This document shows positions 1 to 22,117 of a DNA stretch of 27,737 nucleotides, one piece after another; positions within the stretch are counted from its first letter, which is position 1; each line of letters begins with the position of its first letter. This DNA comes from Zygnema cylindricum (taxonomy: Eukaryota; Streptophyta; Zygnematophyceae; Zygnematales; Zygnemataceae), in the NCBI GenBank assembly GCA_037447655.1, contig JBBHKE010002445.1, positions 133,131 through 160,867 on the forward strand, read 5' to 3'. A model generated the notes under the pieces. The model saw only the letters and a program-made list of their open reading frames with translations. It searched no databases and had not been told where the DNA came from. Both the position numbers and the translations under genes were made by a program.

Positions 1-617
1 GAGTAACCTTATATTTCCGTAATGATTAATAACAAGCTAGTTTAGTGTATGAATTGTTAGCGATAAAGGTGGACTTTTTCCAGAGACCTCACACACCTCG
101 GTTTTGCACATATATTTGCAAAATATACATTTTGAGGTTATATTATGAAGTGTGAGGACATGTTTTGTTAAGAACTTTTTGTTAGAGGAAGTAAGGAGTC
201 TGTATTGAATATACAAAAGAAAGGTGAGGTTACAACCATAAAGAAGGGGATCACTGTTAAATATATAGGAAAAGTGACAGTGTTATAACTTTTAGAAAGG
301 TCAGTGTTTTGTTGACTGGAAAGATTTTCAATATTGTGACAGTGAAAAGGATATATAAATTGTCACTAGGGGAAGAAATACCAACATTGGAGTGGAAAGA
401 AAACATATAAGTTATGTCTGAGGAATGAAGGAGATTGTTTTTCAAGAATTGTTTTGTACAGGAGTGTGAAGTATTATATTGGAGTTTTACATATAAAACG
501 TTTATATACACGTTTTGGCTCCACACACTCCAGAGACCTTTTTCAGGTGGAAATAGCGATTGTTAAGTATGTGATTTGATCGAACAATAATTAGTAATGC
601 CTTTATATTCCAATGAG
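1..617. repeat. Long mirror repeat (reverse, not reverse-complement), 305-nt arms
   Basis: Position i matches position 618-i on the same strand. I compared the arms base by base: 1-305 read backwards equals 313-617 without a mismatch, around a 7-nt centre (306-312) that is not itself symmetric. For example, positions 92-101 (ACACACCTCG) appear reversed at 517-526 (GCTCCACACA). An ordinary inversion or hairpin would give the reverse complement, which is not what is seen here. The left arm runs to the window edge, so the symmetry may continue outside. I see no gene in either arm. The arms are AT-rich and are not simple-sequence or polypurine DNA, so this is not a typical H-DNA tract. An artefact is possible. 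Confidence 0.95.
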
Positions 618-5543: not shown

Positions 5544-8351
5544 ATGGACGCTGTTATTGGTGCTCTTCCTACTGCAAATTTAATTGCTGCTTCAGGCTTT
5601 TCCAGTTCTATTTCTAGACAGAATGGCAAAGTGGCAGCTTCTGTAGCGGTGACTCCAAGAGCGATTGTAGGACCAAGGAAAAATTTGAAGGTAAGCGTTC
5701 ACCTAAAGGCAGATGTGCTGTGATAAGTGAAAACTTGACTGAAGCTTTGGCTTACCGGAACAGGTTTCCTTATCTTTGTGAGACGGAGAATTGCCTACTT
5801 TACCTCTCATTTTATGGCCTGCAGAGTGGTAAATCGTTTATACGACTTAAATTTCATTGTTGAATCACTGTGAAGTTTGAGACGTTTAAGTTTGAATTTT
5901 CATAACAATTTTTGTAAGTTTGTTTTTTATTGCGGGCTATATTTGAAATTGACAAGTAGGTTACGGTAGGTTTCTTTTTGGATACTGATCCGGGAATGCA
6001 TGGTTTCCTTAGTCAGCGCCCAAGGGCAAGGCATCAGCTAATCCTTTCCAGTTGAAGTCAATTGATGCCTTTTCATATTTGTAATTACGTTCTGTTAAAT
6101 TTGTCATATGCATATAATTTTCTTTTCTTAGAAAATACACAAGTGCATGATTGTGCTTGAGTTTTTTTGTAGTTTGATATTTCTACCCAAACGTTCGGCA
6201 TGAGGTCTGTGTAAGCATGTTTGTCTAGAATATCAGTACTATGCTATCAGTTAAGCGTTTGGGCCTTTCAAAATTGAAATTGCAGCTACCATGGGGGTGT
6301 ATGTTTGATACCAAGTGATCATACCTTCCTTTCACGAGTTCTGCACATTCCCGTAGCATTCATCATCACTTTTAAATTCATTTTTTTGATTTAGTGTTTT
6401 TGTAGCTTCAGGTTGGTCAATTGCAGTCTCAATTTTATTGAGTTCCTTATCACCACTCCTAAAATTTAGTTGTGTGATTTTAATCTATGGTTGTCTAACT
6501 TGTTGAAATGCAGTCTCAATTCTCTGGAGTTCCTTTAAATTGGCAACTTTCTCGCCGGTCTCGCGAAGTTTGCTCGTGTGACGTATCAGTTAAAGCTGAA
6601 AAATCTTCTTCTTCAGGAAACAGTCAAAGCTATAAATTGGCGCCTCTTGAGCCAGAATCGCCAACTGGGCAATTTCTGACTCAACTTCTTCAAAGTCATC
6701 CACACTTATTTCCTGCAGCAGCAGAACAGCAGTTAGAGAGGCTTGTTGCTGAAAAAGAGGAACAAGAAGCTAAAGAAAATGATCTTGCAAACACCAGTGG
6801 AAATGATCTCGTTTTGTATAAGTATGTACTTTGCAATTCATTGTCTTTTTGTTGTTTTTGTTTTAAAGTTTCGGTATTGCAGGAGCTGCATGATTTTCAT
6901 TTGTAAAGCTGGGTGTGGTCTGATTGTTTTGGATCTCTGATTTTTTCAGTGGTGTTCTTGAATCACCGCAGCGTTTGCTTGCCAGTTATTGAGAAAAGTA
7001 TGTATGTAAAAGAACTGGAGAAGAGGATGTTGTGTAGAGGAAATTTACGCATTGTCTGGTGATAAGTTGTTCATTGGACTGGCCATGCCTTTCTCCAGTG
7101 TTAATAGCTGCTTAAATTTTCATTGTCTGGCCTCTGTACCTAATTACTGTGCTATGTTCCTTGTCTTGTAGGAGAATTGCTGATGTAAGGACAGCCGAAA
7201 GAAAACGAGCTATTGAAGAAGTGATCTATGCCCTTATTGTCCAGCGGTTTGTCGAATCAGGAGCTTCTCTTATGCCTCAGATACCATTTTTGTCTACTGA
7301 AGATCTCTCTCCCAAGGAGTTAATGGCCGCTTTCAGGCCTTCAAAGGACAAAGAGCTCCTTCAAATTCATTCAGAGGATGTGAGGGAAATGGTCAAAGAA
7401 CATCTGGATATGATTCTTAAAGGAGTGAGGCCCGAGGGCTTTTCACCAATGCTTGACGACCGAATATTATTGGTGGCGTCTAAACTTAAACTAGGACAGG
7501 TATATGCTGCGTCGATTATGTATGGCTATTTCCTACGAAGAATCGACCAGAGATTCCAGCTCGAAAAGACGATGAAAAGCCTTCAAGCAGAGGGAGGTAT
7601 TTGGGAGGCATTTGAAACAGACTCTGGTAGTAGTGAGGCGAGCAGTACTTCTTCAGAGGACAATACTGGAGTTTCAGATGTTGGTAGACCCCCTTTGGAC
7701 CCCATGGATAGACCTGGCGAAGATGGATTAGCAGCAGCTTTTTCAGCAGCTGCGGCAGCCATGGCCAATGGTGGAGCTGCAGGGAAGCAAAGTCCTCTAA
7801 GACAATATATTGCCAAATATGACCAGGAGAGTTTGATTAAGAATGCAACTTTGCGGAGCAGGTACATCATTCTTCTGTTTTTCATTTTCTCAACACAATT
7901 TTTATCATTATTAGTGTGGTGTGTTTGTTAGTAGTTTACATGAGTTTCTTTACATGTGGTCTTTACATCAGTTTCTTGGACGTTTTATTCAATATCATAT
8001 TGTAGTTTTGTAGAAAGTATTTAGAACAAGCACATGTTAATTGGAAATGTTCTCTCTGAGACCAGTCTCTTGGTTCTGAGGTTTTTTTACATGTGTAACT
8101 CACCTTTTTTTTGTCTCGTTCTTGTATGCAGTGAGGGACTTAGTGTAATTGAAAAACATACGGAAGCTCTATTTGGCCGACCAGAAGTAGTGATGAGTGA
8201 TGATGGAGGATTGGCAATGCTGCGAGATGATGCAGCTCGGCTCAGTATTGCAACTCTTAGGAGAATGGTTCTGGAAGCTGTGGCGTTTGGAAGTTTTCTA
8301 TGGGATATAGAAAGTTACGTCGACTCACAGTATGCCATCTCTAAATCTTAA
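5544..8351 (+). CDS. DUF760 family, UV-B-induced protein At3g17800-like, chloroplastic (4 exons, 454 aa)
   Basis: The coding exons are 5544-5690, 6514-6821, 7172-7861 and 8132-8351, all with GT-AG junctions. They total 1365 nt and end at TAA 8349-8351. The first 75 or so residues are rich in Ser, Ala and basic residues, like a chloroplast transit peptide (MDAVIGALPTANLIAASGFS). Next comes the family segment LAPLEPESPTGQFLTQLL and then the DUF760 core, with RIADVRTAERKRAIEEVIYA at residues 153-172 and later RPEGFSPMLDD and YAASIMYGYFLRRIDQRF. A Ser-rich acidic linker (ETDSGSSEASSTSSED) and an Ala run precede the C-terminal segment, which ends YAISKS. The Arabidopsis relative is UV-B-induced and predicted to be plastid-localised; its biochemical role is unknown to me. 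The ATG at 5544 is the only one in the open frame. The sense of exon 2 depends on skipping an upstream decoy acceptor (see 6423-6536). The identification is strong, the molecular function open. Confidence 0.9.
6423..6536 (+). repeat. Duplicated intron 1 acceptor / exon 2 start (decoy acceptor 87 bp upstream)
   Basis: GCAGTCTCAATT occurs at 6423-6434 and again at 6510-6521, followed in both by a similar run ending GAGTTCCTT. The second copy is the real 3' splice site, with exon 2 starting at 6514. In the first copy, splicing would read TCT CAA TTT TAT TGA, an immediate stop at 6439-6441. This looks like an old 87-bp tandem duplication of the intron-exon boundary. Confidence 0.7.

Positions 8352-10856: not shown

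Positions 10857-22117
<11,261 letters not shown>

Follow-up and report, generated by a model that had tools for sequence, protein, structure and literature searches.

Known routes of DNA copying yield direct or reverse-complement copies, and the faults usually met in gap closing and contig extension are wrong joins and duplications in direct or reverse-complement orientation. The 27,737-nt stretch of Zygnema cylindricum DNA analysed here (the window; assembly GCA_037447655.1, contig JBBHKE010002445.1) begins with a 617-nt mirror repeat, in which a sequence is followed by itself written backwards on the same strand. The mirror resembles the gap-closing and contig-extension errors of draft assemblies, in which false sequence copied from the neighbourhood is placed at a gap edge. 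Unlike in the usual gap-closing errors, however, the flank is reversed without being complemented, and no report of a reversed, uncomplemented flank at gaps was found in our literature searches. Positions 1-305 of the window are almost certainly an assembly artefact from scaffold gap closing and not a biological feature, because such mirrors abut N exactly, and on the right side, at all four gaps of this scaffold, for which there is no biological reason. No biological function has to be accounted for.

Two classes of natural repeat were compared with the mirror. Triplex-forming mirror repeats (H-DNA) share its same-strand mirror symmetry, and the 7-nt spacer in the window is a further likeness. 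In an excerpt of PMC13419748, mirror repeats are treated as non-B DNA motifs, and the H-DNA mirror repeat is defined as 100% purine on one strand. The window arms, on the other hand, are of mixed composition with all four bases throughout, and the spacers of the other mirrors described below are 61, 102 and 317 nt long. H-DNA was rejected as a candidate on the purine definition, and an earlier reading made from the letters alone (the sequence-only reading) was right in calling the repeat not polypurine. Inverted repeats (palindromes, foldback) likewise have two arms and a short centre, but their arms are reverse complements of each other; this candidate was also rejected, with 0 of 305 arm pairs complementary in the window.

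The mirror at the left end of the window

The window corresponds to positions 133131-160867 of the scaffold that we call C1848, in a genome of 352.8 Mb and 2,689 contigs. It is the entire N-free stretch between two N-runs, called here gap A (3,485 N, C1848:129646-133130) and gap C (4,574 N, C1848:160868-165441). Position 1 directly follows gap A, the last base (27737) directly precedes gap C, and the mirror stands at the left end. The far edge of gap C carries a mirror with 213-nt arms (L024:1-5102 = C1848:160868-165969); the window's own right end has none.

Positions 1-617 form a perfect mirror about base 309. Bases i and 618-i are identical in 305 of 305 pairs (i from 1 to 305), as the sequence-only reading had claimed, and the absence of complementary pairs agrees with its statement that the relation is a same-strand reversal and not a reverse complement. 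The 7-nt centre that it described as failing to mirror was also recovered: the spacer at 306-312 reads GTTTTGT, and the mismatched pairs there are just 306/312 and 307/311. The parts of the mirror are as follows.

1..305 (+): left arm at the right edge of the gap, a backwards, uncomplemented copy of 313-617 and probably artefact sequence (305/305 mirror; first base after 3,485 N; judged false from its counterparts at gaps B, C and D)
306..312 (+): spacer GTTTTGT, putative true left edge of the contig (unmirrored; spacers natural at gaps C and D)
313..617 (+): right arm, probably genuine and the source of the backwards copy (runs on into 618 and beyond; homology marks the right arms of gaps B and C as natural)

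In a genome search, which gave one candidate, the left arm matched only itself, and an Rfam search returned nothing at gathering scores. A minus-strand open frame at 257-526 crosses the mirror junction. The earlier suggestion that the mirror might extend further left or take in 618 onward is not supported. The mirror ends at the gap, and by analogy genuine sequence would run from 306. Comparing 618 onward with the sequence left of the window had been proposed as a check; the base before position 1 is N, and nothing comparable stands there.

Mirrors at the other gaps

Five N-runs were compared, on two scaffolds: four within the contiguous C1848:1-230867 and one on the scaffold C2319. Other scaffolds were sampled with seven loci of ~3 kb (L002-L008), three 10-kb loci and an additional 14 kb from one scaffold. 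The right edges of the five gaps were as follows.

Gap A, C1848:129646-133130, 3,485 N: mirror arms 305 nt, spacer 7 nt
Gap B, C1848:85693-85702, 10 N: mirror arms 341 nt, spacer 61 nt
Gap C, C1848:160868-165441, 4,574 N: mirror arms 213 nt, spacer 102 nt
Gap D, C1848:213602-216019: mirror arms 48 nt, spacer 317 nt
Gap E, L033 3413-6253 (C2319): mirror 14 nt, spacer 116, GA-rich

At four of the five gaps, all four on C1848, a perfect mirror begins with the base that directly follows the N-run. The 14-nt mirror at gap E was indistinguishable from chance, with 39 of 280 GA-rich control positions reaching 14 nt. Other duplications (direct, complement and reverse-complement) were also looked for around gaps A-D, and none was common to all four.

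The left edges of the same gaps were then compared with the right edges. At gaps A-D the mirrored ends measured merely 5, 5, 4 and 4 nt, and at gap E an 18-nt mirrored end lay in a GAGAGG-type simple repeat. The scaffold starts of C1848 and C2319 were mirrored over 5 and 6 nt. A mirror scan was carried out on 265,875 ACGT bases from 31 sources (L035 and L036 lay outside it). It required exact arms, 18 nt or longer and no more than 3 kb apart, with a dinucleotide entropy above 2.2. It gave six matches, namely four gap edges, the window's included, and two in low-complexity sequence, 18 and 19 nt long; away from gaps, the scanned bases held no mirror longer than 19 nt outside simple sequence. 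Mirrored-prefix controls were taken at 28,391 positions, with GA arrays and positions near known arms still included. In these controls 80 positions reached at least 48 nt, which is not a clean null, and the GA-rich subset alone was used, for gap E. Because the upper control tail is unclean, specificity otherwise rests on the scan. These results indicate that the window mirror is far beyond chance, and that in the regions examined the effect is one-sided and tied to gaps rather than to scaffold ends.

The distribution of the mirrors also bears on a possible origin in the reads. A strand read backwards in sequencing or basecalling and carried into the contigs would likewise yield a same-strand reversal, with no slip in gap closing. 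However, the arms are free of mismatches over 213-341 nt and confined to right gap edges, and none occurs at the two scaffold starts or in contig interiors. A read artefact of this kind is very unlikely.

Natural arm and proposed origin of the copy

The choice between the two arms was approached through gaps B, C and D. At gap C, a single minus-strand open frame (L024 5274 to 4672) crosses the right arm (5102-4890) and the spacer (4889-4788). Its residues 97-161, equal to L024 4986 to 4792, match Pfam Retrotrans_gag (E 1.2e-8). The match stops 4 nt short of the spacer end and does not take in the last part of the frame, which lies in the left arm. At gap B, right-arm positions 87-323 are 85% identical to the locus L018 and over the next 300 nt the match goes on at 84%; no second copy of the left arm turned up in the DNA searched. 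Homology of this kind supports the right arm as the natural one at gaps B and C.

At gap D, the spacer is a long terminal repeat (LTR)-like repeat that matches at least nine further places in the DNA fetched; for the 48-nt right arm itself no second copy was found there. Over the 48 nt preceding the spacer, three repeat copies, aligned ungapped, agree with one another at 40, 35 and 37 of 48 positions. The left arm of gap D agrees with the same three copies at only 15, 11 and 12 of 48. Its departure from the repeat copies places the break at the first base of the spacer. Judged from these repeat alignments, the gap-side arm at gap D is directly shown to be wrong, together with the point where it starts.

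The same comparisons bear on the converse arrangement at the window, in which the left arm would be genuine and the right arm (313-617) reversed. In its favour, neither window arm was proved natural. However, homology identifies the right arms of gaps B and C as natural, and at gap D it is the left arm that departs from the repeat copies, so that a reversed right arm is extremely unlikely. By analogy, positions 1-305 of the window would be a backwards copy of 313-617, and genuine sequence would run from 306.

The mirrors could also be imagined as real chromosomal DNA made by a process that reverses sequence on the same strand, with gaps adjoining because assembly fails at such structures. In favour of this, the arms are perfect and occur at several places of one genome. 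On the other hand, all long mirrors begin exactly at the first base after N and on the right side only, and since the strand of a scaffold is arbitrary, such one-sidedness would have no reason in a real structure. Moreover, the false arm at gap D stands in place of sequence that is common to three repeat copies. Real DNA is improbable to the point of being nearly negligible. The sequence-only reading had offered two branches, an unknown process or a data artefact such as a reversed segment; the artefact is favoured by the mirrors after N at four of the five gaps.

Several points weigh against an assembly artefact at the window. Gap E gives no support, the rule was seen on one scaffold alone, and the N-runs are not each proved to be assembly gaps. 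The arm choice at the window rests on the other gaps, and neither window arm can be proved natural by k-mer composition; subtracting the left-arm from the right-arm score gave +3.9, +0.8, +2.0 and -1.5 at orders 2-5, inside the control spread. The argument is built on assembled sequence alone.

If the mirrors arose in gap closing, the right flank of each gap would have been extended leftward, and a slice of its own interior written on the gap edge, reversed and uncomplemented. Numbered from the putative true edge, the slices that were copied span 8-312 (gap A), 62-402 (gap B), 103-315 (gap C) and 318-365 (gap D). Read leftward from the edge, the added bases reproduce the interior flank in its forward order. 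A coding slip could account for this pattern: leftward extension would be done through string reversal, with the read or local consensus cut in forward orientation. The part after the anchor would then be interior flank, and reversal on output would give the mirror copy. Platanus-allee, the gap closer for Zygnema cf. cylindricum SAG 698-1a_XF according to an excerpt of PMC9915684, is a loose candidate only. It assembles the reads assigned to each gap, as described in part of PMC6461651, and this description neither supports nor excludes such a slip.

The finding is a matter of data quality and not of biology, and serves as a warning about the assembly. If the rate on C1848 held assembly-wide, backwards stretches of tens to hundreds of bases would be frequent at the right gap edges of the 353-Mb genome. 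Backwards sequence is not recognised by ordinary alignment, and gives false unique sequence and false open frames, such as that at 257-526 on the minus strand. The signature, a mirror from the first base after N, is simple to scan for in assemblies from the same software.

Other features of the window

A dispersed repeat of ~70-90 nt lies at 1176-1266 and is ~80-87% identical to 39 other places in the genome, as judged from 40 scored candidates of 308, itself included. A (GA)n-rich array of more than 1.1 kb occupies 18534-19689, and as a result both strands contain long but spurious open frames. Two frames with domain matches were found. The plus-strand exon frame at 7149-7931 has a DUF760 domain (E 3.7e-19), and its best organism-named relatives are Closterium proteins, among the best 120 of 291 matches, which points to a streptophyte alga. 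The minus-strand frame at 16229-16610 has a Transglut_core match (E 1.7e-10), and a 102-nt tandem repeat of 2.5 copies (16229-16484) overlaps it.
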